Below are positions 24,819 to 56,855 of a stretch of DNA of 61,145 bases, in pieces. The notes under the pieces were generated by a model. It had not been told where the DNA came from, did no database searches, and saw only the letters and a program-made list of their open reading frames with translations. Origin of the DNA: Nitrosarchaeum sp. (lineage in GTDB: Archaea; Thermoproteota; Nitrososphaeria; Nitrososphaerales; Nitrosopumilaceae); the NCBI GenBank assembly GCA_021414365.1, contig JAIOOR010000010.1:1-61145 (forward strand), written 5' to 3'. The position numbers and the translations under genes were made by a program. Every line of letters begins with the position of its first letter. Position 1 is the stretch's first letter.

Positions 24819-25628
24819 TTAAATGGAAGATACCATTTCCATTGGTTTTGATTTTTTCCACATATGATTGCACAGACTGAACATGTTTTCAACCATTTCT
24901 TCAGAATTTGTATACATGATTGAATCTACTTCATCAATCAGGTCCATTGATTCTTTCATTGCGCCTGACATGATAAGTTGTCGTTTTGTTTCTACTATCA
25001 TTCTACTTTTTGATGGTAGTTTTCCAATTCTAACTTCTGTAGCACCTAGCTGATTAATAATTTCCATAGTCTTTGAATTACACTCGTTTGTAATGATTTT
25101 GATATCCGCGCCATCATTTACTCGTGCATGGATTTTATCTGGAATGGATGTGTGATACATTCTCATTAAATCCTCTGATGTAGTGACTAGGAAAATTTTG
25201 TTTGTTGATTCTTGAATCAGTTTTCCAATTCTAGTGTAGATGTTAGATCTTCCTTGTACAATTGAGAACGAAGACAAATCCGTAGGAGTTGTTTCTCTTT
25301 CATAATTGTTTAGATTTTCTACAAGAGTTCTTGCTAATTTTTGCAACATGATGATCTCATCTTCCTTTTTTTGAATCACACTTGTTAATGCCTCAGATGG
25401 TTGTACAGCATTTACAATTGTAGGATTTGAAAAGGTTGTAGAGATAACGCCCATATTTCTTAGCTTGTTTAAAGATCTGTATGCTTTCCCTCTATCTACA
25501 TCCAGTTTTTGTGCCATTGTGCCAACAGTTACAGAACCCATTTGAAGTAAACCGACATAGATTTTTGCATCAATTTCTTCTAACCCGAAATGAAACAGTG
25601 AAGTGTAAATTTCATCTTTGCTTACCAT
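24819..25628 (-). CDS. TrmB family regulator beside the archaellum locus
   Basis: A 269-aa TrmB protein with a winged HTH at residues 5-85 (GLEEIDAKIYVGLLQMG, then VDRGKAYRSLNKLRNMGVI) and a C-terminal phospholipase-D-like sensory domain. It is divergent from the first archaellin gene with only about 220 bases between them, so it is the best local candidate to regulate the archaellum operon. That role is inferred from position. No self-site of the recurring 19-bp type was found directly at its own start. Confidence 0.88.
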   Translation of the reverse strand: MVSKDEIYTSLFHFGLEEIDAKIYVGLLQMGSVTVGTMAQKLDVDRGKAYRSLNKLRNMGVISTTFSNPTIVNAVQPSEALTSVIQKKEDEIIMLQKLARTLVENLNNYERETTPTDLSSFSIVQGRSNIYTRIGKLIQESTNKIFLVTTSEDLMRMYHTSIPDKIHARVNDGADIKIITNECNSKTMEIINQLGATEVRIGKLPSKSRMIVETKRQLIMSGAMKESMDLIDEVDSIMYTNSEEMVENMFSLCNHMWKKSKPMEMVSSI

Positions 25629-25790: not shown

Positions 25791-25809
25791 TGTATGTTCA
25801 CTCCATACA
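25791..25809 (+). promoter_or_regulatory. Recurring 19-bp palindrome upstream of archaellin 1
   Basis: TGTATGTTCACTCCATACA has perfect 6-base arms and a 7-base spacer. It directly abuts the sequence CACTCTAGGATATACCC, which contains a TATA-like GGATATAC. The same downstream stretch recurs before archaellin 3. Its place just upstream of the TATA-like box is where archaeal activators bind. Confidence 0.6.
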
Positions 25810-25848
25810 CACTCTAGGATATACCCAAACCACACTATTCTCTAATCA

Positions 25849-26562
25849 ATGAAATTACAACGAAAGGGAACGCGACATTCTCATCGTGGAGTCATCGGTG
25901 TAGAGTCTGCAATAGTTATGATTGCATTTGTAATCGTAGCAGCAGCCTTGGCATTTGTTGTACTAAACATGGGATTCTCTACTTCGCAAAAAGCAAAGAC
26001 AACCATTCTTTCAGGATTGGCAGAATCAAGTAGCAGCTTGGAAGTCTCTGGTAAAGTTATTGGAGTTGGATGTACTACCGCTGCTGGTAGCTGTACCAGT
26101 TCACCAGTGCTTAATGCAACTGCAATACCAATCAAAATTACATCTGGTGGTGATTCAGTTGAATTATCTGCTGCAACCACAACAGTAAGCTATGTCAGCA
26201 ATTCAAAACAATACACTGACATTTATGTTGGACCACTTCCAGCAACAACAGAATATCGTTCATTGTCAGATGCATTTGATGGTGCTGTAGGTGTTTTGAG
26301 TGGATTTTCAGGTACTGTACAACCAATTACAGGAACAAATCCATCTTCAACTAGTGCATTTGTTTATTGGACTGTAGCATCAAACACCAATGCAATACTA
26401 GATCAAGGTGAACACGCTATTTTGGCAATCGCATATGCTTCTGCTGATAGACCAGCTGCATTGGATAAAATCAGAGCTGAAATAATTGTGTCAACAGGTG
26501 CTTCATTGACAGTAGAAAGACAAGTTCCAAACATCACTACTAGCGTAGTAGATCTAGGTTAA
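25849..26562 (+). CDS. flaB: Archaellin 1
   Basis: A 237-aa filament subunit of the archaellum. A basic leader MKLQRKGTRHSHRG precedes the class III cleavage site, giving a mature start VIGVESAI followed by a long hydrophobic helix (VIVAAALAFVVLNMGF) that forms the filament core. The C-terminal beta domain ends VPNITTSVVDLG. A CTTAAGSC cysteine pair near residue 70 is unusual for archaellins. It should be cut by FlaK at 6.9 kb. A short hairpin terminator follows. The name arlB is also used. Confidence 0.95.
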   Translation: MKLQRKGTRHSHRGVIGVESAIVMIAFVIVAAALAFVVLNMGFSTSQKAKTTILSGLAESSSSLEVSGKVIGVGCTTAAGSCTSSPVLNATAIPIKITSGGDSVELSAATTTVSYVSNSKQYTDIYVGPLPATTEYRSLSDAFDGAVGVLSGFSGTVQPITGTNPSSTSAFVYWTVASNTNAILDQGEHAILAIAYASADRPAALDKIRAEIIVSTGASLTVERQVPNITTSVVDLG

Positions 26563-26673: not shown

Positions 26674-27387
26674 GTGAATTTACAAAGGACGCGACATTCT
26701 CATCGTGGAATTATTGGTGTAGAGTCTGCAATAGTTATGATTGCATTTGTAATCGTAGCAGCAGCCTTGGCATTTGTTGTACTAAACATGGGATTCTCTA
26801 CTACACAAAAAGCAAAAACCATAACTACTTCAAGCCTTGAAGAAGCAAGCACTGCCATGGAAATTTCAGGCACAGTATTTGGAATCGGGTGCACAAGTTC
26901 ATCTGCAAGCTGTGATTCAATACAAAAAATTAACGCAACAATAATTCCAATAAAAATTGCGGCGGGTGGACAATTAGTAAATTTTGCTCCGGGTGTAACT
27001 GCAATCAGCTTCTTTTCAAAAAACGTCGAATATACAAATATCTTTGCAGGCACAATAACTGTTGATGAATACAAACAGCCAATCCTAGCATTCAGACAGG
27101 CGGCATTAGAAGCAGGCGCTGCCTTTGATGCATTTAATGGATCAAATCCTATTAATGGTACACTGCCGAGTGAAACCACTGCATTTGTTTACTGGCCAAA
27201 AAGATTAAACACAAACAGTATTTTAGAATCAGGTGAACACGCTGTATTGGCAATAGGATTTGCCGATTCTGATAGACCTGTAGCAGGTGAAAAAATCAGT
27301 ATTGAAATAATGCTATCTGATGGCGGAACATTGTCAATAGATAGAATCATTCCTAACATTACTAGAGAAAATGTAGACCTGGGTTAA
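26674..27387 (+). CDS. flaB: Archaellin 2
   Basis: A 237-aa archaellin starting at GTG. The leader MNLQRTRHSHRG and core helix are nearly identical to archaellin 1, also at DNA level over about 110 bases, while the rest of the protein differs clearly. This pattern suggests gene conversion or selection limited to the N-terminal polymerisation helix. A Cys pair is again present (GCTSSSASCDS). The C-terminal end is IPNITRENVDLG. A T-rich tract follows the stop. Confidence 0.94.
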   Translation: MNLQRTRHSHRGIIGVESAIVMIAFVIVAAALAFVVLNMGFSTTQKAKTITTSSLEEASTAMEISGTVFGIGCTSSSASCDSIQKINATIIPIKIAAGGQLVNFAPGVTAISFFSKNVEYTNIFAGTITVDEYKQPILAFRQAALEAGAAFDAFNGSNPINGTLPSETTAFVYWPKRLNTNSILESGEHAVLAIGFADSDRPVAGEKISIEIMLSDGGTLSIDRIIPNITRENVDLG

Positions 27388-27437: not shown

Positions 27438-27456
27438 TGTTTGATCACCATAAACA
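27438..27456 (+). promoter_or_regulatory. Recurring 19-bp palindrome upstream of archaellin 3
   Basis: TGTTTGATCACCATAAACA has 6-base arms around a 7-base spacer and directly abuts the same CACTCTAGGATATACCC promoter block as archaellin 1. It shows that the operator with its promoter was duplicated or kept together with the gene. Confidence 0.6.
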
Positions 27457-27495
27457 CACTCTAGGATATACCCAAACCACACCATTCTCTAATCA

Positions 27496-28115
27496 ATGAA
27501 ATTACAACGAAAGGGAACGCGACATTCTCATCGTGGAGTCATCGGTGTAGAGTCTGCAATAGTTATGATTGCATTTGTATAATTTCTAGTCTAGAGGAAG
27601 CTAGTAGCTCAATGCAAGTATCCGGAAAGGTAATCGCGGGAGGAGACGTCAATAATGCATGGATCCATACTGTAGGAGTACCAATCAAGATTGCATCAGG
27701 TGGTGATGTAGTAAACTTGAGTAACGCAACAATGGCAGTAAAATATGTCAGCAACTCAATAAACTATGATGACATCTATGTAGGTGCAATGAACGGTGAA
27801 TACAAGAGTTTATCATCTGCTGCAGCAGCTGCATTAGCAGATAACTCTGGTGATATGGCCGACATTGATGCCAATCCATTTGTATCTGGATTGTCGACAA
27901 ATACTCGTGCATACATTTACTTTGCACAAGAAGTCAATAGCAACGATATACTAGAACAAGGTGAAACTGCAGTGCTTGCAATCACATTCAAATCTGGTGA
28001 TACACCACAAGTACTAGACAAGATCAAAGCAGAAATAATCATCCCAACCGGGGCTGCATTGACTGTAGAGAGACAAATTCCACCAATCACAACAAGCATA
28101 GTAGATTTGGGCTAG
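27496..28115 (+). pseudogene. flaB: Archaellin 3, interrupted by an out-of-frame deletion
   Basis: The gene begins at ATG 27496 with the same leader and core-helix start as archaellin 1, but meets TAA at 27580 after 28 codons. From 27579 another frame resumes at ATA ATT TCT and runs to 28115 as a normal archaellin C-terminal part ending ITTSIVDLG. Compared with copies 1 and 2, 24 codons of the core helix are replaced by two bases, a loss of 70 nt at a short TAAT microhomology. The product cannot polymerise. The lost part is identical among copies, so an assembly collapse cannot be excluded. Confidence 0.8.
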
Positions 28116-28124
28116 GAGATTAAA

Positions 28125-29204
28125 ATGCTCCACCCACCAGCTTTTTTCTTAAAATTTTTTTTAAACGAAAGTAATCAAAAAACTATCATAATCTCTTCAT
28201 TTGCTACTTATTTTTTAGTGGCATACGAATTATTTCCATATTTGATATTTGATGAACAGAATTTCTTGTTTAGTGTGATTGTTCCATCGGTAGGATTAAT
28301 TTTTGGACTCTATTGGAAAAAGATTCCTTTGAAAATATTTTCATCAAAAAACAAATCAACCAAAGCAAATAATCCCATTAAAGAAAAACCCGTTGAAGAC
28401 TCTATTGAAAGCATGGTTAATTCTTATGCAGAAGATGATAAGATGGTGGTTTCAGATGGTACCATAGGAAATTCTGAGATTGAAGCCATGTTGGCAAGAA
28501 CCAATACTGCCCCATCAGCACAAGAAACACCTGATATTGAATCATTACTTGCAGGAACTGACTCAAACACATTTGATGTTTCTTCAAATGATCAAAATTT
28601 AGATGCACAGATGATGATAATGGAAAAAATTGAGCCTATAGAAAACGCGATTAGCACATTCAAATTAGATTTTGATCAGTTCAAGCAAGATCTAATCATG
28701 GTAAAAGAAGAAGTAGATGCCCTATCTTCATCATTTGAAAGTACAATGACTGAAATTAAATGTATTACAACTGACTTTAACAATCCTCTAAATTTTATGA
28801 ATCATGATTCTATTAGACAAAATATTCAAACAATTGATGTTGATAAATTAATTAAACCTACTATTTCTACATCCATATCTGAAAATATACGTGAACCAGA
28901 ACCAGTAAGAGAACAAATACGTGAACCAGAACCAGTAAGAGAAGAGATTGAAGAATCTACAAAAGATATTGCACATTTACCTGAAGAGATCAAAGCAGTT
29001 GTAGAAGAATTCTCAAATGATTTTTCACCTGAAGAAGTATACGAGTTAGCAAAAATTCACTGTAAAACATCAAAAATTGCATTAGATGAAAAACAATTGG
29101 CATTATTTATAGATAAAAAAAATAATTCAGATGAATTAAAAAAGAAATTTAACATATCTGAATCAGCGCAGTCAAAACTTTCAGTTTCAAGTGATGTGAT
29201 ATAA
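28125..29204 (+). CDS. FlaX-like archaellum accessory membrane protein
   Basis: A 359-aa protein in the exact place where crenarchaeal flaX lies (flaB-X-G-F-H-I-J). Two hydrophobic helices cover about residues 20-65. They are followed by a long charged cytosolic part with a predicted coiled coil near 170-225 and a helical C-terminal domain near 285-345. A perfect-like tandem repeat (IREPEPVREQ, IREPEPVREE) links them. No FlaC/D/E domain is seen. By position and shape it may form the cytosolic ring around the motor as FlaX does, but sequence similarity is not evident. An AGGAGAT ribosome site precedes the ATG. Confidence 0.75.
   Translation: MLHPPAFFLKFFLNESNQKTIIISSFATYFLVAYELFPYLIFDEQNFLFSVIVPSVGLIFGLYWKKIPLKIFSSKNKSTKANNPIKEKPVEDSIESMVNSYAEDDKMVVSDGTIGNSEIEAMLARTNTAPSAQETPDIESLLAGTDSNTFDVSSNDQNLDAQMMIMEKIEPIENAISTFKLDFDQFKQDLIMVKEEVDALSSSFESTMTEIKCITTDFNNPLNFMNHDSIRQNIQTIDVDKLIKPTISTSISENIREPEPVREQIREPEPVREEIEESTKDIAHLPEEIKAVVEEFSNDFSPEEVYELAKIHCKTSKIALDEKQLALFIDKKNNSDELKKKFNISESAQSKLSVSSDVI
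28887..28946 (+). repeat. 30-bp tandem duplication inside the FlaX-like gene
   Basis: Two nearly identical 30-base units (28887-28916 and 28917-28946) begin ATACGTGAACCAGAACCAGT and encode IREPEPVREQ and IREPEPVREE. The repeat is in frame and lengthens a Pro/Glu-rich linker. Confidence 0.85.
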
Positions 29205-29683
29205 TGGCAGCTGGTGTTCTAAGCGAAGGTGTATTAATTATCGCATCTGTCATATTGGCAGGAATGATTACGGGAATTGTTATTAGCAAAGTTGGTTCAT
29301 TTGAAAGTTTTTACACTGCTACCACAGAAGCACAAAAAGAAAAACTGTTAAACAAATTTGAAATAATACATGTAGTAAAAACAAATAATACATCAGTTGA
29401 CATTTGGGTAAAAAATACCGGATTATCCCCAATTCAAAAATTAGATTCTATGGACATATATTTTGGCCAAATTCATTCGGCACAATTAATTCCATACAAT
29501 CAAGGCTCCAATCCGCAATGGGTATTTGGAGATGACACAACACCGAGTTCTATTTGGTCTCAAGGAAATACCGTTAAAATCACTTTACAAGATGGCACTG
29601 CTTTACAATCTTCAACTTCATATGAATTACAAATGATTATTTCAAATGGTGTATCTGATGACACGATTTTCTCAGTAAACTAG
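29204..29683 (+). CDS. flaG: Archaellum stator-like protein FlaG
   Basis: A 159-aa protein with one N-terminal helix (SEGVLIIASVILAGMITGIVI) and an extracellular beta-sandwich domain. This layout and the order FlaX-like, FlaG, FlaF fit FlaG, which together with FlaF contacts the S-layer and anchors the motor. Its start overlaps the stop of the FlaX-like gene (TAATG). The hydrophobic helix resembles that of archaellins, as in known FlaG. Confidence 0.88.
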   Translation: MAAGVLSEGVLIIASVILAGMITGIVISKVGSFESFYTATTEAQKEKLLNKFEIIHVVKTNNTSVDIWVKNTGLSPIQKLDSMDIYFGQIHSAQLIPYNQGSNPQWVFGDDTTPSSIWSQGNTVKITLQDGTALQSSTSYELQMIISNGVSDDTIFSVN

Positions 29684-29692
29684 GTGATCAAA

Positions 29693-30202
29693 ATGGGGTT
29701 AAGTGTTGCAATAAGTGGGGGAATCATCATGTTTGGAATAATTTATCTCATGTTTTCGCTAAGTGGTCTTACAGATAGCATTGCATCTATTTCGGATTCA
29801 TCAATGCACAGTTCGGATTTAGAAAATAAACTTGTAAAAACATCTATCACGATAAATTCAATTACTGCTACTGGTACAACTTCTAACGTTAGTATAGTTA
29901 TAAAAAATGATGGGATTGAAAAACTGTGGGAATTTGAAAAATTCAACGTGATAATAACTTATGAAAGTTCTGGTACTACATATACAGAAAATCTGATATA
30001 TACAGATACATGTCCTTCAAGTCCAGGCCAATGGTGTCCTCTTTCATTTAATAATGATGTGATAGATCCAAAAATTCTCAATTATAATGAAACTTTGAGC
30101 ATTGATGCTAAAGTATCCAACAACATTACAGCCCTTACTAATGTTATTTGTGTAGTTTCAACACAAAATGGAGTTGTTGCAACAGAAACTACTGTGGCGT
30201 GA
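29693..30202 (+). CDS. flaF: Archaellum protein FlaF
   Basis: A single-span protein (MGLSVAISGGIIMFGIIYLMFSL) with an outside Ig-like domain that in other archaea binds the S-layer and works with FlaG. A GTG nine bases upstream would lengthen it by three residues, but AGGTGATC, a strong match to the 16S anti-Shine-Dalgarno, overlaps that GTG, so ATG 29693 is the likely start. Two Cys pairs in the outer domain (TCPSSPGQWC) may form a disulfide. Confidence 0.85.
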   Translation: MGLSVAISGGIIMFGIIYLMFSLSGLTDSIASISDSSMHSSDLENKLVKTSITINSITATGTTSNVSIVIKNDGIEKLWEFEKFNVIITYESSGTTYTENLIYTDTCPSSPGQWCPLSFNNDVIDPKILNYNETLSIDAKVSNNITALTNVICVVSTQNGVVATETTVA

Positions 30203-30205
30203 TTC

Positions 30206-30224
30206 TGTTCAAAAAAATCAAACG
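30206..30224 (+). promoter_or_regulatory. Recurring 19-bp element before flaH
   Basis: TGTTCAAAAAAATCAAACG keeps the arms TGTTCA and CAAACG around 7 bases. It is followed within ten bases by a TATA-like TTAAATAA and lies in the only real gap (77 bases) of the archaellum operon, so it may drive an internal promoter for flaHIJ. Confidence 0.5.
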
Positions 30225-30279
30225 TTTTCTTAAATAAAAAATTTCCATAGTTACATTGTTTCGAAATTGAGGTGCAAAT

Positions 30280-30993
30280 ATGGTTTCCACTATTCCTACT
30301 GGTAACGAAGAATTCGATAGACAATTTGGTGGGGGTATACCTACACCGTCACTAGTATTCATAGAAGGAGAGCATGGTACTGGCAAGAGTGCAATCTCCG
30401 CTCAAATAATGAACGGATATCTAACAGCCAGAACAAACAAGAAATACAAATTATTATGCATAATTGAAAATACTGTTACACAATATATTCAAAAAATGAA
30501 ATCATTGACATTTAATTTTTCAAAACCATTTGTACGAAATCAATTAATGTTTGTTCCAATATTTATAAAAAATGCTAAATGGTCTGAAAAAAATTCAGAA
30601 AAAATCTTACCTGCAATTAAAGAATTTATCACTAGAAAATTAAATTTAGTAGATGGCATAATTATAGATTCCATCTCTCCAATGGTAATTAATTCTGATA
30701 ATCAATCTATTATGGATTTTTTGTCTTTTTGCAAAGAGATAGTTGCAAAAGGTAAAACAGTGATAATTACTAGTCACTCTTCTGATTTTTCCAAGTCTGC
30801 AAATACAGCTCTTATTGGTGCATCAGATGTTTATTTAAAACTTGGAACTATAATAGTTGGAAGCAGAGAAGTAAAAACTCTAAAAATTGTAAAACTATTG
30901 GGTGCTAAAGATACTCCTGAATCAGGGTTTGCTTTTGAAGTTGATCTAATTTTTGGAATTAAGATTGTCCCAGTGTCTATGGCAAACGCTTAG
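30280..30993 (+). CDS. flaH: Archaellum ATPase-like regulator FlaH
   Basis: A 237-aa RecA/KaiC-fold protein with Walker A GEHGTGKS at about residues 30-37 and a Walker B strand GIIIDSISP. FlaH binds ATP and sits on FlaI inside the cytosolic ring, regulating assembly and rotation. GAGGTG lies just before the ATG. It is the first gene after the operon's only long gap and has its own candidate operator and promoter. Confidence 0.93.
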   Translation: MVSTIPTGNEEFDRQFGGGIPTPSLVFIEGEHGTGKSAISAQIMNGYLTARTNKKYKLLCIIENTVTQYIQKMKSLTFNFSKPFVRNQLMFVPIFIKNAKWSEKNSEKILPAIKEFITRKLNLVDGIIIDSISPMVINSDNQSIMDFLSFCKEIVAKGKTVIITSHSSDFSKSANTALIGASDVYLKLGTIIVGSREVKTLKIVKLLGAKDTPESGFAFEVDLIFGIKIVPVSMANA

Positions 30994-31002
30994 GTGAGAA
31001 AA

Positions 31003-32673
31003 ATGGTATTTAATTTATCTTCAATCCAAGACAAAAACTTTGTAGCAAAATTACAGGAAAAACCATACTTGCTAAAATACGTTGAAGCATATCAGATGAA
31101 AGGAAATCCACTCCCTCTTTTTTCTGAAGAATTAAAATCAGAACATAAAAAGCTCAAAGAACCAAATTTAATTTATACAGTTGCTGAAGATACATTTATC
31201 CATATTAATCCAAACACTACTGCCGATGACGGATACAATGAGTATGTCACAATAGAACCTGAAGAACCTGAGAGAACATTAATGGAGTATGCCGACCGTG
31301 TCTTTGCTGCTAAAGCCGGAGGCCTTGATCCCCCAGCAGAAATTACTGAAAGATTTAACATGGTAAATAATTATCTAAACGATACACTGGTATCTACTTC
31401 AGATCCTGTTGATTATTCTAAATTAGGTGATCCTTTCAAAATTAAGAAACTCCCAGTTCATTCAAAAGAGCTAATCAATCTAAAATATCATTTTCTTCAA
31501 AGAAGGGCAGGTACGGGTCTTTTAGAGCCATTTCTAAATGATCCAAATCTTGAAGATATTTCGATCATTGGTGCTGGAAACATGTACATTATCCATAAAG
31601 CATTTGGAACATTAAAGGTCCCAGTTTTTCTCAGCATTGATGCAATTGATGAGTTAATTGTTAGTTTATCTGAACAATTTGGAAAAACTGTATCTCACGC
31701 AAAACCTGTAGTTGATGCTACATTGCCTGATGGTTCCAGAATTAACATCGTATTTGGAAAAGACATCAGCAGAAAAGGAACAAATGCAACAATCAGAAAA
31801 TTTGCTAGTACCCCATTATCAATAATTCAAGTTCTTTCATCAGGTGTGATGAATTTTACTGAAGCAGGATACCTGTGGATGATGTTGGAGGCAGGGATGA
31901 GTCTTTTTGTAAACGGAGAAACCGCATCTGGCAAAACAACTACTTTGATGGGACTGACCGCATTTATTCCATCTAATTGGAAAGTGGTAAGTATTGAAGA
32001 TACTCCAGAGCTGACATTACCGCACAATAACTGGATTACTGAAGCCACTAGGGATACTGGAAACAAAGCATCAAGTGTCACAATGGATGATTTACTAAAG
32101 GCTGCATTAAGACAACGTCCTAATTACATTCTTGTAGGAGAAATCAGAGGTGCGGAAGGAAATGTTGCATTTTCTGCAATGCAGACAGGTCACCCAGTTA
32201 TGGCAACCTTTCACGCTGCAGGCATGGTTCCACTTATTCAGAGATTATCTAATGCTCCAATTAACATACCAAAAACATACATGGAAAATCTGAATCTGGC
32301 ATTATTTCAAGCGGCTGTACTAAATCCAGAAGGAAAGAGAGTTCGTAGAGTGCTGTCAATAAATGAAATCATTGGAATCTCAAATGAAGGAAACGTGATG
32401 TTCATACCTGTGTTTGATTGGGATGCTGGAACTGATACTGTGAGATTCAAAGGAAAAGGAAGCAGTGCACTTTTCATTTCAAAGGTTTTGGAAAGACGAG
32501 GTATGAAAAGAAGAGATGAGGCACTTTTGTATGATGAGTTGGATTTACGCTCAAAGATACTCGAAAGAATGTTAGAAAAAAAAATCTTTAACTATTATGA
32601 TGTATTTAATGCAATCTCTCATTGTAGAGAAATTGGACTAGAGCAATATTACAAGGAGCTTGCAATGCATTGA
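31003..32673 (+). CDS. flaI: Archaellum motor and assembly ATPase FlaI
   Basis: A hexameric type II/IV secretion-type ATPase of about 556 residues that powers both filament export and rotation. Walker A GETASGKTTT is near residue 305, Walker B is VGEIRGAE near 380, and the His box is in FHAAGM. A GTG nine bases upstream would add three residues; AGGTGA overlapping it is the ribosome site, so ATG 31003 is preferred. The stop overlaps the TTG of flaJ. Confidence 0.95.
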   Translation: MVFNLSSIQDKNFVAKLQEKPYLLKYVEAYQMKGNPLPLFSEELKSEHKKLKEPNLIYTVAEDTFIHINPNTTADDGYNEYVTIEPEEPERTLMEYADRVFAAKAGGLDPPAEITERFNMVNNYLNDTLVSTSDPVDYSKLGDPFKIKKLPVHSKELINLKYHFLQRRAGTGLLEPFLNDPNLEDISIIGAGNMYIIHKAFGTLKVPVFLSIDAIDELIVSLSEQFGKTVSHAKPVVDATLPDGSRINIVFGKDISRKGTNATIRKFASTPLSIIQVLSSGVMNFTEAGYLWMMLEAGMSLFVNGETASGKTTTLMGLTAFIPSNWKVVSIEDTPELTLPHNNWITEATRDTGNKASSVTMDDLLKAALRQRPNYILVGEIRGAEGNVAFSAMQTGHPVMATFHAAGMVPLIQRLSNAPINIPKTYMENLNLALFQAAVLNPEGKRVRRVLSINEIIGISNEGNVMFIPVFDWDAGTDTVRFKGKGSSALFISKVLERRGMKRRDEALLYDELDLRSKILERMLEKKIFNYYDVFNAISHCREIGLEQYYKELAMH

Positions 32674-34178
32674 TTACAAATCTTATTCCTAAAGTTAAAA
32701 ATGTTTTCAGTTCTGGTAGTAAAATTGATGAAAATTTTGTTTATTTTATGGCATATCTGTATAGTATCTCTACTGGTGAAATAGGAGCTGTGGATTTATT
32801 CAAAACAGCAAAAGATTCCAAATACGGAAAATATTCTGCGGCATTCAAAGACACATACAGATTGGGAATAGGATGGTCATATGGTCTTGCATCTGCGTGT
32901 GAGATGATGGGAAAAATAGTTTCAGATAGAAAAGACGATCCGATGAAATTACTTTTAGTGAAATTGTCACAAGTTGTACGATTAGGAGATGAGTTAAAGG
33001 CATTTTTTAGAGACGAGTTAAAAAATTCTATTTTAACATACGAAATAAAATATGAGGCAAATCTTGAATCGCAGAAATTATTTTCCGAAATGTTTTACAC
33101 CTTAATGTCTACCGCAGCATTTATGATTTCCGCAAATTCTATTATGAGTATGTTGATGGGATTTGGAGATTCAGGGCAGATTTTGATAATTTCAATGGTG
33201 GGTACAGGTGGAGGAATGGCAGTTTTTGTAGCAATGATGTTTTTTATGTTCCCTCGAGACAAATTGGCTCATATCAATCCAGTACTTGAACAAAAATTTC
33301 GAATGAAAATTTATCTTGCTGTAGGGGCATGTGTAGGAATATCATCAGTGTTAATAATTATAGATATTGTACCTCCTGTACTTGCTGTAGGGTTGGGTGG
33401 AATCCCATTGTTGTATCCGGGAATTCTTGCAAAAAAGGCAGAATCAAAAATTTATAGTTATACGGAATGGTATCCCACATTCATTCTTCATTTTTGTCAA
33501 TTATTTGCGACCGTAGGTTCGATGGGACAGGCATTACAAGCAGTAATGAGAAGTAATTTTGGAACAATTCAAAATTTTATTGATTCATTTAAAAACAGAA
33601 TTAAAAACAGAATTGATCAAATAATTGGTTTCGAATTATTTTCAATTGAAACTGAGAACCACCTTATTGCAAGTGGTAATTCAATTATATCTGCAGGAAT
33701 TTACAAGGGGGCGGATATGAACATTGTAGGAAACATTGTATCAGATCTTACAAAAAAAATTAATGAGTTAAGAGGAAAAAGAACTCAAAATGCATCAACA
33801 TTTCAACTAGTTGTAATTATCTTACACGTGCTTTCTCTTTCAGTATTTGGATTAATGAATAAACTGACAGAATTATTTAATGGGATATCGGGAGGAGAAC
33901 TATCAAATGTTGCATTCAAATTGACACCGATAGATCCCGCGCTTATGAGTTCTCTTATGCCAGTTCTTGTCATTATGACATCCATAATCAGTGGGTTTGC
34001 AATAAAGATAGTTAAGGGAGGATTATACAAGACAGTATTTTTCTATATTGGATTATTACTTGTTATTGGAGGAGTCTCAATGTATGTAATTAGCACATTC
34101 ATGTCTACATTTTTGGAGCAGATAATATTCACTGCGCCATTGCCTGGAATATTACCTGCTGTAGTACCTGGAGTTTAA
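32670..34178 (+). CDS. flaJ: Archaellum membrane platform protein FlaJ
   Basis: A 502-aa polytopic protein, the only fully integral part of the archaellum motor and partner of FlaI. Several membrane segments are clear: a pair around residues 145-205, one at 215-250 and three or more from about 370 to the end. Two large charged cytosolic loops lie between them. Start is TTG, sharing two bases with the flaI stop, with AAGGAG some ten bases upstream. It is the last archaellum gene. Confidence 0.94.
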   Translation: MITNLIPKVKNVFSSGSKIDENFVYFMAYLYSISTGEIGAVDLFKTAKDSKYGKYSAAFKDTYRLGIGWSYGLASACEMMGKIVSDRKDDPMKLLLVKLSQVVRLGDELKAFFRDELKNSILTYEIKYEANLESQKLFSEMFYTLMSTAAFMISANSIMSMLMGFGDSGQILIISMVGTGGGMAVFVAMMFFMFPRDKLAHINPVLEQKFRMKIYLAVGACVGISSVLIIIDIVPPVLAVGLGGIPLLYPGILAKKAESKIYSYTEWYPTFILHFCQLFATVGSMGQALQAVMRSNFGTIQNFIDSFKNRIKNRIDQIIGFELFSIETENHLIASGNSIISAGIYKGADMNIVGNIVSDLTKKINELRGKRTQNASTFQLVVIILHVLSLSVFGLMNKLTELFNGISGGELSNVAFKLTPIDPALMSSLMPVLVIMTSIISGFAIKIVKGGLYKTVFFYIGLLLVIGGVSMYVISTFMSTFLEQIIFTAPLPGILPAVVPGV

Positions 34179-36704: not shown

Positions 36705-37760
36705 ATGTTAGAACAACAACTAAAACCAATCAAAGTTTGTGTGGTAAATGATTCAAATCTGATGAGAAAATATTTAAGTGATTTAATAACCTCAGATGAA
36801 ATCGAAGTAATTTGGACTGCGATTGACGGAGAGGACGCAATTACAAAAATCACTTTAAAACAACCAGATGTTGTTTTATTAGATTTAGAAATGCCCAAAA
36901 TGGATGGACTTACATTTATTGAAGAGATGGTAAAATCTGGAACATTACTTCCAATAATCGTAGTAAGTTCATTTTCTCAAAAAGGTGCTAAAATTGTTTT
37001 AGATGCATTAGAAAATGGTGCTGTTGATTTTGTAACTATTCAATCAAATATTCAAGATAACGAAAATTTAAAAGAAACACTTGTAACTAAAATAAAAATT
37101 GCGTATAATTCAGATCCATATCAATTAATTCCAGAAAAAATTCACTCACTTAGACCAAAACATCAAGGAATTCAGATGATGAATAGTTCCGAAAGATTAG
37201 TTGTTATAGGTTCTTCTACCGGAGGTCCTGGAACTATTCAAAAAATTTTAAGTGAATTGCCTACAGATCTACCTGCTGGAATTTTATTGGTTCAACACAT
37301 GCCAAAAAATTTTACACAACAATTTGCATCTAGATTATCTGAAAACTCTGGATTTGCGGTAAAAGAAGCAAAGGAGGGGGACATGATCAAGGATGGTGAA
37401 ATTCTAATTGCTCCCGGGGATTTTCATATGATAGTACAACCAAATAGAAAAATACATCTGGATTCAAGTGAAAAAAGATTTGGTGTAAGGCCATCTATTA
37501 ACATGACAATGATTTCGGCATCAGAAGTTTATGGTGCTGATCTTGTAGGGGTAATTCTAACTGGAATGGGACATGATGGAGGATTTGGAATGAAAACCAT
37601 TAAAAAAAGAGGAGGTCATACAATAGTGCAAAATAAAGAGACATGTGTAATATTTGGAATGCCTAAAGAAGTCATTGATCTTAATGCTGCAGATCATATT
37701 TTACCCTTAAACAAAATTTCTTCCAAAATTTCAGAGGAGATTCAAAAACTTGTCAGATAA
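36705..37760 (+). CDS. cheB: Protein-glutamate methylesterase CheB
   Basis: A 351-aa enzyme that demethylates or deamidates receptors. The N-terminal receiver has acceptor D60 in VVLLDLEMP. The C-terminal esterase has the triad S171 (IGSSTGG), H198 (VQHMP) and D291 (TGMGHDG). Its 3' end overlaps the preferred TTG start of cheA, so the two are coupled. All key residues are intact. Confidence 0.95.
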   Translation: MLEQQLKPIKVCVVNDSNLMRKYLSDLITSDEIEVIWTAIDGEDAITKITLKQPDVVLLDLEMPKMDGLTFIEEMVKSGTLLPIIVVSSFSQKGAKIVLDALENGAVDFVTIQSNIQDNENLKETLVTKIKIAYNSDPYQLIPEKIHSLRPKHQGIQMMNSSERLVVIGSSTGGPGTIQKILSELPTDLPAGILLVQHMPKNFTQQFASRLSENSGFAVKEAKEGDMIKDGEILIAPGDFHMIVQPNRKIHLDSSEKRFGVRPSINMTMISASEVYGADLVGVILTGMGHDGGFGMKTIKKRGGHTIVQNKETCVIFGMPKEVIDLNAADHILPLNKISSKISEEIQKLVR

Positions 37761-39309
37761 TAATTATCGTGAGATGTATGTATCTGAGGCACTTGAGCAC
37801 GTAACTATTATCACTCAAACACTTTTACAGTTAGAAAAAAAACCTGATGAAAGATCATACTTAGATCAGATTTTTCGTTCAGCACATACAATTAAAGGAA
37901 TGGCATCAACTATGGGTTATCACGATACGGTAGAATTATGTAAAAATATTGAAAATATTTTTGATGAGATTAGAAATGGTGTTGAAAAACTAACTTCTCA
38001 TATTGCAAGTATTCTCTTTATTTGGATTGATCTTTTACAACAGATGATATCTGATGAAAAATTAAAAATTGATTTAGATCCATATTTGAAAAGTTTAAGA
38101 AATCCAGAAGAGGTAAAAAATCATTTAGAACCTAAACCCTCTACAAATGTTTCAAATACAATTCGAGTGAAAATGTCTGATCTTGATTTGTTAGTAAATG
38201 TGGTTGGTGAACTACTTATTTCAAAAATGAGATTAAAACAAGCTATTGAAAATAAAGATTATGATGAATCAAAACAAATAATGAATGAAACTGATAGATT
38301 AATTGCAGATTTGCAATATAAAACAATGCAAGTACGCCTAGTTCCAGTAAATCAAATTTTTGATAGATTCAGCAGAACCGTAAGAGATGTTTCTAAACAA
38401 CTAGGAAAGCAAATTAATTTTGAAATGCATGGGTCTGGAATAGATCTTGATCGAAGTGTTTTAGATTCAATTACAGATCCATTGTTACATATTTTAAGAA
38501 ATTGTGTAGATCATGGAATTGAATCTGTCGAAGAAAGAATCCAAAATAATAAATCCAAAATAGGTCAGATTACGTTAACTGTTACTCGAAAAGGAGACAA
38601 TATTCTAATCATAGTAGCTGATGATGGAAAAGGAATTGATGCAGAAAAGGTAAAAGAAAAAGCAGTTGAAAAAGGAATCATTACCAAAAATGAAGCAATC
38701 AAAATGAATCATCAAGAAGCAATTCGCTTGATTGGTTCTCCTGGACTGTCTACAGCTAAAGAAGTCACAGATATCTCTGGGCGGGGTGTTGGTATGGATG
38801 TAGTAATCTCCAACGTTGAATCAGTTGGAGGGTCATTGAATATTCTCAGTGAATACGGAAATGGAACTACTATGATTCTGACCTTGCCTTTGAATATTTC
38901 AATAATTAAAGGATTAATAATTCTAGTTTCAAACCAACGATTTGTACTACCAATATCAAGCATTGTGACTACAGTAAACATACCACGTACTGAAATTTTT
39001 TCAGTGCATGGAAATGATGTAATAAAATTTCAAAATAGTATCATCCCATTAATAAAATTAAATGAATTATTTGAAATACAAGACAAGAAATCATTTGAAA
39101 ATGAATCAATCACTGTTGTAGTTATTGAAAATGAAGAAAAAAATTATGGATTAGTAATTGATTCATTTGAAAGAAATCAGGATGTTGTAATAAAAAAATT
39201 AGAACAAAACGAATACTCTGACTTATTTCTAAATGCAACTATACTTCCAGATGGAAGAGTATCCTTGGTGATCGATCCTTCATTATTAGTTGATTTGGTG
39301 ATTCCATGA
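37750..39309 (+). CDS. cheA: Chemotaxis histidine kinase CheA (no P2 domain)
   Basis: A 519-aa CheA. The P1 Hpt domain carries H46 in FRSAHTIKGMAS. After a short linker (about 105-135) comes P3 (VKMSDLDLLVNVVGELLI), then the P4 ATPase with the N box HILRNCVDHGIE and G boxes DDGKGID and GRGVGMD, and the P5 CheW-like end. There is no room for a P2 domain, so CheY and CheB would be recruited without it. The TTG start is chosen because it overlaps cheB; ATG eight codons in is an alternative. Confidence 0.94.
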   Translation: MSDNNYREMYVSEALEHVTIITQTLLQLEKKPDERSYLDQIFRSAHTIKGMASTMGYHDTVELCKNIENIFDEIRNGVEKLTSHIASILFIWIDLLQQMISDEKLKIDLDPYLKSLRNPEEVKNHLEPKPSTNVSNTIRVKMSDLDLLVNVVGELLISKMRLKQAIENKDYDESKQIMNETDRLIADLQYKTMQVRLVPVNQIFDRFSRTVRDVSKQLGKQINFEMHGSGIDLDRSVLDSITDPLLHILRNCVDHGIESVEERIQNNKSKIGQITLTVTRKGDNILIIVADDGKGIDAEKVKEKAVEKGIITKNEAIKMNHQEAIRLIGSPGLSTAKEVTDISGRGVGMDVVISNVESVGGSLNILSEYGNGTTMILTLPLNISIIKGLIILVSNQRFVLPISSIVTTVNIPRTEIFSVHGNDVIKFQNSIIPLIKLNELFEIQDKKSFENESITVVVIENEEKNYGLVIDSFERNQDVVIKKLEQNEYSDLFLNATILPDGRVSLVIDPSLLVDLVIP

Positions 39310-51114: not shown

Positions 51115-51537
51115 TCATGTTGGTTTTGGAATTTGACCGTACAGTCCCATTCTTTTCCTCTCACGTAATGCATCAGCTACAACTTTCAATAAATTCACAC
51201 GTTGCATCGGTTTAGGAACAAAACTAAAAGCTCCAAGTCTCATCATTCTATTAAGAAGTTCTTGGTCATCAGTATATGCGGTAGTCATAATTACTTTGAT
51301 TGTAGGATCATCCTTACAGATGGCTTCTAATACTTGCATTCCATCCATACCGGGCATTTGCCAATCCAATAATACTGCATCTGGTTTGTACTGCCTGTAC
51401 ATCTTGAAACCTTCAACACCACTTGATGCTAGTAGTACTGTAATGAATTTAATATCTTCTTTAATTATCGTTTTTGCAAATTCCCTAAATGAGGCAGAGT
51501 CATCAATTATTAGAAAAATCGGATATTGTCTTCCCAT
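51115..51537 (-). CDS. Stand-alone receiver, tandem copy A
   Basis: A 140-aa receiver with IDDSASFREFA, acceptor D58 in VLLDWQMP, and the Lys in VPKPM. It shares about two thirds of its residues with copy B just upstream, and long stretches are almost identical at DNA level, for example around 51160-51290 and 51690-51820. It is therefore a recent tandem duplication. No output domain. Confidence 0.9.
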   Translation of the reverse strand: MGRQYPIFLIIDDSASFREFAKTIIKEDIKFITVLLASSGVEGFKMYRQYKPDAVLLDWQMPGMDGMQVLEAICKDDPTIKVIMTTAYTDDQELLNRMMRLGAFSFVPKPMQRVNLLKVVADALRERKRMGLYGQIPKPT

Positions 51538-51570
51538 AAATAATTTATAAGTTTAATCAATATAGGAAAT

Positions 51571-51639: not shown

Positions 51640-52077
51640 TCAAACTTGAGATGATTTTACAGGATTACGAATTGTGCCATAAAAGTTGGCGTTTCTTCTC
51701 TCACGTAATGCATCAGCTACAACTTTCAGTAAATTTATTCTGTTCATAGGTTTAGGAACAAAACTAAAAGCTCCAAGTCTCATCATTGTATTGAGAAGTT
51801 CTTGGTCATCATCATACGCGGTAGTCATAATGACTTTGGTAGTAGGATCATCTTTGATAATTGCCTCTAACACAATTAATCCATTATAATCCGGCAGATG
51901 CAAATCCAATAATATCACATCTGGTTTGTATTGCTTGTATAATTTTAGACCTTCAACACCATTTGCGGCTTGAAAAATATTTATCCATTTGATATCCTCT
52001 TTAATAGAATATTTTGCAAATTCTCTAAATGCAAGAGAATCATCTATTACCAAAACTATAGGATATGTTCGACCCAT
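51640..52077 (-). CDS. Stand-alone receiver, tandem copy B
   Basis: A 145-aa receiver paralogous to copy A, with IDDSLAFREFA, acceptor D58 in ILLDLHLP, and the same end ALRERR followed by a different tail. Changes concentrate around the acceptor loop (DWQMPGMDG against DLHLPDYNG), which suggests that the two copies now have different partners. Each copy has its own operator and promoter. Confidence 0.9.
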   Translation of the reverse strand: MGRTYPIVLVIDDSLAFREFAKYSIKEDIKWINIFQAANGVEGLKLYKQYKPDVILLDLHLPDYNGLIVLEAIIKDDPTTKVIMTTAYDDDQELLNTMMRLGAFSFVPKPMNRINLLKVVADALRERRNANFYGTIRNPVKSSQV

Positions 52078-53987: not shown

Positions 53988-54287
53988 AGAACAATTTCTA
54001 ATTTTTAGTGTGTCATACAAAATTTTTATTAAATTCAAAAACCCCAAACATATGGAAGCTGGATGGTCATAATTTCCAACATTAGCAGGTGATTGTTCTC
54101 TTACTAAGATATCCTATTCCACCGGAGAATAATCAATCTAGCTTCCAAAATTGCAAAAACCAGCAAATGCAGTGAGGCACAGCATTGTGATTAACAAGGG
54201 AACAAAAACTAGAACTATTTGAAAAACAAACCATAGTGCAAAACATCAGAAGAACTTTTCAATGACTAAATATTGATTTCATACAGT
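53988..54287. other. Non-coding stretch with an 8-bp inverted repeat and a leader shared with another gene
   Basis: No frame of note. TGGAAGCT (54053-54060) and AGCTTCCA (54140-54147) form a perfect inverted repeat around about 80 bases, which contain AGCAGGTGATTG and a GGAGAAT. The last 45 bases before the next gene (GAAGAACTTTTCAATGA and on to the start codon) are nearly the same as those before the gene at 57830, so they are a shared promoter and leader. Confidence 0.55.
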
Positions 54288-56855
54288 ATGAAGTATTTTG
54301 TGATTACTCTTTTCTTTGTTGGACTTGTTGGTAGTGCGTCTGCACAATATATGGGTGGTTCTCAAGAATCTGGTCTAATTTGGCCTCCTGTATGTATTGG
54401 CATACATTGTCTATCGTCTGATGAAGTTATAAAAAATGTCTTTAGCAGTGCAATATCAGAACCATTTGATCAAAGTGATTCAGTTATTGTAGGAACAGTA
54501 ATACAAAAAGAAAACAAAGACAAACACATTACATATTCCATTAACGTTGATTTCTATCTCAAAAACAAACAATCGTTTGATTTGATTACTGCAACTCTAA
54601 ATGATGCAACAGAGCCAGCAACTTTTCCCGAGGTGCTTTATTATAATTCCCCCGTCTTCAATGAAGGCGATCTTGTATTTGTTTACCTGAAAAAAACAGA
54701 TGGAGTCTATACCATATTGCCGCAATCATTTGCGCTGGACAAACATGAGCCAAGAGGTCCTCCGCCTGACATATTGCTAACAACTAGCCCAAGAAATGAT
54801 AAATTTGCACAGGGAGATGAGATTACGGTATCTGGTCAGGTAAGAAAAGCAGAGTTGTATTATTCTGCCAAAAAAGGCGAGTCTCTTGATGTCAAACTGA
54901 CAATATTAGATGAACAAAGAAAACCTGTTCAATCTAATCGGATAAACATTGACTCCAACGGGAATTTTCAATATGTCTTACAAACATTAAATCTTCCTCC
55001 AGGACAGTACGATCTTGACATAAACTATGGTCCTGAAACAACCTCTCCAAGAGTCACACTTGAACCCAACCTGAAATACTGGACTCCGCTAAAACAAATC
55101 AAATCAGGAATTCCAGTTGATGAAATTCAATGCACGGAAAACCTAGTTCTAATCCAAAAGTATGATGGTTCTCCTGCATGTGTAAAACCAGATACAAAAG
55201 AAAAGATGATTGAACGTGGATGGATTAAGGATCATTCAAACAAAATAACATTTGAAGACTACATGGTAGATTGCAATAATAAAATGAATCCATACGAAGA
55301 ATATGAGTGCTTTAAGGACGCCCTCTCTAGCTGTAAAATGGCTACGGTGAATCCAGAAATTTACACTATAGAGGGAGATGCTGTGTATACCACACTAGAG
55401 ATAACTCCTGACTGTAAAATTAAGGGAATAGCAGATATGAGCACTGATAGGTTTTGGGGTCATCCTGAAATCATCACAGCTGTTTGCAGCACGATAGATC
55501 GTGATGAGTACATGTGGGTAGTCAAAGACTGTGATGCAGAAAAACTTCCTGAAATACAGTTTAATTTTGAGATGCAGTTGTATCCAAAGATTCTAGAATG
55601 TGAAGAAAATGGAAACACATGGAGTCGTGAAACCCTGTCTTGCATCACCAAACATTCCTCCTCAGGCGAATCAATCTGGAAAAAATACATCACAGTTTCT
55701 GCAAGTAGAATTGACAAATCAAATCTAGAGGATATCTTAGACATAATAAAATTAGAAAATTCGCCACAAAACGATTTATTAGATCTACTTGTTGGTGCAG
55801 ATGGCTGTAAAAATGAAACAGAGATATGCAAAATATCTGGAGGTATATCACTTGACAGAACCTATTCTTTTCTTTCTTCGAGTCTACGCGTATCAGATAA
55901 TGACATGTATTCTGTCACTCTGACTCCGACTCAAGCAGACAATATTTTCTCAGTATTGGATTGGACCAGAAATGAAAATTCATTTTATGTAGTAATCCAG
56001 TGGGACGAAAAATATTACTTGTTGGAGTTATCGACATTTGATAATTCAAAAACCCCTGATGTCAAAATGAACATTATTGGAACATCATATGAGCCAGTTT
56101 CATTAAAACGCGGTGAGATTCTAAACTATACCATTCAGATTAACACGTGGGCTACATATGGTGACTCTGCCAAAATAGATCTCAGCGCAATTCAAGATAC
56201 AAAAGATTCTGGAATTACAGTATGGGTTGAGCCCAAGATTGTATTTATTCCAGAGAGAAGCAATGCAACTACAACCCTATTCATACAAGCTCAGGATGAT
56301 GCAAAAGATGGAATCTACGACATTAGAGTAATAGGGTACGCAAATGAAAAACTAGCCAATCTCTATTGCAGAAATACCACATGTCCTACGATAAAAATTG
56401 GAGACTCTGATTGGGCTATTCGTACATTTGGATCCGGCACCAATATGGGAATAGGTGGAGGTCAACATCCTGAAAACACTTGGATGGAACTAGAGTTAAA
56501 CAAGAATGAATTCTTTGAGGGCGATATGGTAGAAATCAGAGCATACATGATTAACAACAGCACTGAAAAGATTACGGTTGTTCCAGACAACCTATTGATC
56601 AAGGTGATAAAAGCGCAACCTGTTGGATACTATGAAAATCTTTACGGTATTGATGCAAGATACGAGTCAGACAAGCCAATTGTATTAGAGCCTGGCTCAA
56701 AGACACTTTTGGCGAGACCTTTTTACTGGAACCAAAACACATTTCAGAATTTGGATGACGAGCAAAGAGTTGAACCGCGAGAGCACAAGATGATAGCGAC
56801 ATTTGTAGCAGGCAGTAATGCATGGAGTGATGACATATGGTTTGGAATTAAATAG
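54288..56855 (+). CDS. Large secreted multidomain protein, 855 aa
   Basis: An exported protein with a signal peptide (KYFVITLFFVGLVGSASA). An N-terminal domain begins CIGIHCL and contains SDSVIVGTV, similar in outline to NTR/TIMP-like folds. Then comes an Ig-like domain (ITVSGQVRK through YDLDINYG), a short CTENLVLI...CVKPDT...ERGW motif module typical of thaumarchaeal exported proteins, and more beta domains to the end. There is no C-terminal anchor. The ATG at 54288 is chosen over the TTG at 54273 because it matches the start of the gene with the same leader at 57830. Confidence 0.8.
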   Translation: MKYFVITLFFVGLVGSASAQYMGGSQESGLIWPPVCIGIHCLSSDEVIKNVFSSAISEPFDQSDSVIVGTVIQKENKDKHITYSINVDFYLKNKQSFDLITATLNDATEPATFPEVLYYNSPVFNEGDLVFVYLKKTDGVYTILPQSFALDKHEPRGPPPDILLTTSPRNDKFAQGDEITVSGQVRKAELYYSAKKGESLDVKLTILDEQRKPVQSNRINIDSNGNFQYVLQTLNLPPGQYDLDINYGPETTSPRVTLEPNLKYWTPLKQIKSGIPVDEIQCTENLVLIQKYDGSPACVKPDTKEKMIERGWIKDHSNKITFEDYMVDCNNKMNPYEEYECFKDALSSCKMATVNPEIYTIEGDAVYTTLEITPDCKIKGIADMSTDRFWGHPEIITAVCSTIDRDEYMWVVKDCDAEKLPEIQFNFEMQLYPKILECEENGNTWSRETLSCITKHSSSGESIWKKYITVSASRIDKSNLEDILDIIKLENSPQNDLLDLLVGADGCKNETEICKISGGISLDRTYSFLSSSLRVSDNDMYSVTLTPTQADNIFSVLDWTRNENSFYVVIQWDEKYYLLELSTFDNSKTPDVKMNIIGTSYEPVSLKRGEILNYTIQINTWATYGDSAKIDLSAIQDTKDSGITVWVEPKIVFIPERSNATTTLFIQAQDDAKDGIYDIRVIGYANEKLANLYCRNTTCPTIKIGDSDWAIRTFGSGTNMGIGGGQHPENTWMELELNKNEFFEGDMVEIRAYMINNSTEKITVVPDNLLIKVIKAQPVGYYENLYGIDARYESDKPIVLEPGSKTLLARPFYWNQNTFQNLDDEQRVEPREHKMIATFVAGSNAWSDDIWFGIK

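Follow-up and report, generated by a model that had tools for sequence, protein, structure and literature searches.

A broken archaellin gene in a Nitrosarchaeum array, probably a recent pseudogene

Background

The archaellum cluster in a stretch of DNA from Nitrosarchaeum sp., an ammonia-oxidising archaeon, opens with three genes for archaellin, the protein of the swimming filament, and the third of them stops after 28 codons. Is it a dead gene, a gene that is switched off for the time being, or an accident of assembly? The window, by which we mean the whole stretch of DNA that was analysed, is 61,145 nucleotides long, and makes up the entire contig C11 of a genome of 1.875 Mb assembled in 26 contigs. 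The answer defended here, which we hold to be probable, is that the third archaellin is a real and recent pseudogene, in an array that is contracting and whose copies are being homogenised.

The array and its relatives

Among the 18 genomes of the genus that were searched for related arrays, the closest array is that of G002, assembled in one contig of 1.77 Mb. It contains, in this order, archaellin A, a cupredoxin-like gene (a label given by eye from the sequence, not by a family search), and archaellins B, C and D. Four archaellins in the order A-B-C-D are also found in B52T3L11, and types A and D in NORP47 and LS_AOA. The array of the window is shorter, and A is missing. With all coordinates on the forward strand unless otherwise stated, it is formed by copy 1 (25849..26562), whose body is 81% identical to B of G002; by copy 2 (26674..27387), an intact C-type archaellin with a GTG start, 83% identical to C; and by copy 3 (27496..28115), the broken orthologue of D, whose body is 74% identical to it. 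The gene order, the repeated 5' block, the protein family and the archaellum cluster that follows are the same as in the tandem archaellin arrays (ArlA/ArlB, PF01917) of Nitrosopumilaceae-like ammonia oxidisers: the differences are the apparent loss of A and the broken D.

The remainder of the cluster (28125..34178) has all its ORFs open; the Arl names used here are deduced from position. An ORF without Pfam match starts at 28125, only 9 nucleotides past the stop of D, and is followed by an archaellin-like ORF at 29204, a FlaF-like ORF at 29684, a KaiC-type ATPase (ArlH-like) at 30280, a T2SSE ATPase (ArlI-like) at 30994, and an ArlJ-like ORF at 32670, which has no Pfam match and is named from its position only. 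Upstream of the array, on the reverse strand, lies a TrmB-type regulator (24819..25628) that is 99% identical in G002. D is the sole broken gene of the window among the archaellum-cluster genes that can be compared with G002. In G002 itself (locus L016), a run of N at about 399400-399765 falls in the ORF after D, and that gene is comparable only in part.

Three other differences with G002 were observed in the window. The best match of a 529-aa ORF (37720-39309) is an ORF of 316 aa that covers its first part only, which may reflect a break or a fusion in one of them. Two adjoining ORFs (51115-51543 and 51640-52077) both match one single ORF of G002, and are probably a tandem duplication. Finally, an ORF of 860 aa (54273-56855) has a weak match, over 62 residues, in the compared stretch of G002.

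The lesion in the third archaellin

The gene starts at ATG 27496 and, as an earlier note on this DNA had proposed, it is broken out of frame with a TAA immediately following, at 27580-27582. The N-terminal part is intact, over 28 codons rather than the 27 first counted. The deletion is also larger than the 70 nucleotides first suggested: compared with the intact D of G002, 73 nucleotides are missing, that is, 24 codons and one base, which puts the body out of frame. By alignment, the junction (27578..27580) is located at 27578/27579 or 27579/27580, one A being ambiguous, and has at most about 1 nucleotide of common sequence.

After the lesion, the orphaned frame (27582..28115) runs for 177 codons with no further stop, and matches positions 43-162 of PF01917 with 28.4 bits, or 29.5 bits when its in-frame neighbours are included, so that the C-terminal domain is recognisable. 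The downstream frame is, as had been claimed, archaellin-like and free of any other lesion; it has a locally divergent stretch at about 27650-27680.

A functional archaellin combines, in one frame, a class III signal peptide, a hydrophobic core helix and a body. D keeps the signal peptide, but its helix is mostly gone after codon 28 and its frame is broken. Since the lost codons are mostly those of the core helix, which forms the core of the filament in solved archaella (PMC8821640), the product of D should not assemble, and D is almost certainly non-functional. Its orthologues are intact in G002, NORP47, B52T3L11 and LS_AOA, which provide the full third copy that the earlier note had suggested looking for. 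In the arrays of relatives no broken copy was seen: all archaellin starts examined there head full-length genes. Given that D is intact in relatives, and that it is the only comparable gene of the cluster to be broken here, the break is not a matter of chance.

The break also seems young, as had been suspected. Compared with D of G002, the part of D after the lesion has a dN/dS of 0.16, and its two intact neighbours have values of 0.12 and 0.24. Because the value for D falls within the range of the intact neighbours, and no further stop has appeared, these comparisons support a break that is recent relative to the split between the window and G002.

Copy 1 and the missing gene

The promoter and start of D were said to be nearly identical to those of copy 1. 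Indeed, the block formed by the promoter region, the start and the first 28 codons of D (27438..27579) is 95% identical, over 142 nucleotides, to the corresponding block of copy 1 (25791..25932), with an exact run of 96 nucleotides.

Of the 250 nucleotides that precede copy 1, 247 can be aligned, with 88% identity, to the sequence before A in G002; the regions upstream of B and D in G002 match just the last 55-67 nucleotides. Copy 1 joins an upstream region of A type to a body of B type. A search of the rest of the assembly recovered neither A nor the cupredoxin-like gene. As relatives do have A, the most economical interpretation is that A and its neighbour were lost via recombination between the repeated 5' ends, and that copy 1 would be the fusion remaining after this loss. 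In the same assembly, the tips of three short contigs (C8, C16 and C20, of 1.6-2.4 kb) are N throughout.

There is a comparable case in the operon of Halorubrum lacusprofundi ACAM 34, where recombination in the region of the signal peptide led to the loss of archaellin flaB1, whose 5' end stays on the next gene (PMC7349177). This species belongs to another phylum and its operon has two genes; no extra truncated copy is described in the passage on this loss (PMC7349177).

Homogenised 5' ends

The similarity between 5' ends is not particular to the window. A match to PF01917 is present in 59 of the 200 genomes of the family that were searched, and in the arrays that were fetched many pairs of paralogues have exact runs of 100-200 nucleotides around the start, some of them of 400-860 nucleotides. 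A comparison of 36 codons in 69 archaellin copies from 21 genomes gives, at positions with the same residue, a mean codon identity of 0.96 for the 98 pairs within genomes and of 0.63 for copies from different genomes. By this measure the archaellin 5' ends of the family show concerted evolution, with gene conversion as its likely cause. No literature that treats archaellin together with concerted evolution was found.

In some genomes the similarity goes beyond the 5' end: G025, G072, G087 and G118 have long identical tracts between archaellin copies. In the arrays of G025, G072 and G118 (L100, L102 and L110), pairs of archaellins are identical over 665-674 nucleotides from the codons of the cleavage site on, and have different 5' ends, a pattern suggestive of an exchange of promoters or bodies; in the pair of G118, 34 nucleotides just before the identical tract are also common.

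Assembly and sequencing artefacts

The alternative that best survives, although we consider it unlikely, is that the deletion is artefactual, having come from either the sequenced molecules or the assembly: a chimera of amplification or library construction, or a minority haplotype kept as the sole unambiguous path. Identifying the assembler is useful here. Six pairs of contig tips in the assembly overlap by exactly 141 bp, and exact contig overlaps of the maximal k are a signature of MEGAHIT, with a k list that ends at 141 (PMC10914622). Judging by the contig overlaps, the assembler is taken to be MEGAHIT with k=141, and later processing of the assembly may have occurred.

The 5' repeat does break other assemblies: contig L012 of NORP47 begins inside it, and archaellin N-terminal fragments lie at contig ends in several members of the family. 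In error-free graphs with k=141, counting only branches inside archaellin genes, 14 of the 18 multi-gene arrays of relatives branch, so that most intact arrays would be affected, and the array of the window does not. The four other arrays are draft assemblies; they are also unbranched, and the lack of branching is therefore not peculiar in itself.

The contig of the window runs unbroken through the lesion. The same would be expected of a short-read assembler that, faced with a mixed population, retained the sole unambiguous path, and chimeras could yield a junction of low homology. A collapse at an identical repeat, as the earlier note had considered, is nevertheless disfavoured: it requires a join over a shared k-mer, and the junction, judged against D of G002 and with the inferred k of 141, shares at most about 1 nucleotide. 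Sequences are joined in a k-mer graph only where reads connect them, and the reads must therefore have contained the junction. Moreover, an intact D with a helix block in common with copy 1, on the pattern of the G002 paralogues, would presumably create an exact repeat of about 147 nucleotides or more, at which the contig should have ended. We infer that the organism itself carries the deletion, rather than the sequenced DNA alone.

Reshuffling, switching and residual function

A more speculative proposal is that the homogenised 5' block serves as a recombination address for swapping promoters and filament bodies, the broken D being one state of a reshuffling array. Recombination among copies, part of what the earlier note supposed, has support from the family as a whole and from the A/B fusion at copy 1; we regard the proposal itself as quite improbable.

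More improbable still is a switchable, phase-variable D, off at present and restorable from copies 1 or 2. The long block identical to copy 1 on the left side of D, the homogenisation of 5' blocks within genomes across the family, and the long tracts shared between copies in the four genomes named above would suit it. However, the homology lies to the left of the lesion only: in the 200 nucleotides to its right, the longest exact match to copies 1 or 2 is 11-12 nucleotides, and begins about 140-165 nucleotides away. A search of the assembly for a second copy of the right flank of D, which might act as silent donor, found none, no convincing inverted repeats were seen at D, and no broken copy was observed in the arrays of relatives. 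D has thus neither donor homology on both sides nor invertible repeats, and the idea that recombination could restore it is not supported. Salmonella-type phase variation of bacterial flagellin relies on an invertible element and on alternative filament genes. The likeness to the window is that several filament genes, alternatives to one another, are present in a single genome; the window has no invertible element, no donor copy and no right-hand homology. In the part of the literature covered by a search on archaellin, phase variation and recombination, no phase-variable archaellin system was found.

Equally hard to credit is a residual use of the orphaned body or of the 28-residue peptide, or a promoter of D kept only to transcribe the downstream archaellum genes: the promoter block is conserved and the next ORF is very close, but the ORF that starts at ATG 27612 in the body lacks both signal peptide and helix. 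Recoding or frameshift suppression is ruled out, since the helix codons are absent rather than merely out of frame.

Conclusions

The preferred reading remains that of a recent pseudogene in a contracting array. An ancestral four-gene array, with A, the cupredoxin-like gene, B, C and D, would have shrunk in two steps, in either order. In one, an in-register recombination between repeated 5' ends would have removed A and the cupredoxin-like gene, leaving B behind the upstream region of A; in the other, a deletion with little or no homology would have eliminated the greater part of the core helix of D and shifted its body into another frame. B and C would be the intact archaellins left to the cell.

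Short-read assemblies tend to break in archaellin arrays, and archaellin counts in metagenome-assembled genomes are thus unreliable. The case of D is one of ordinary gene death. For a group that offers few genetic tools, the array shows archaellin genes whose 5' ends are homogenised and which, it would seem, are lost via recombination.
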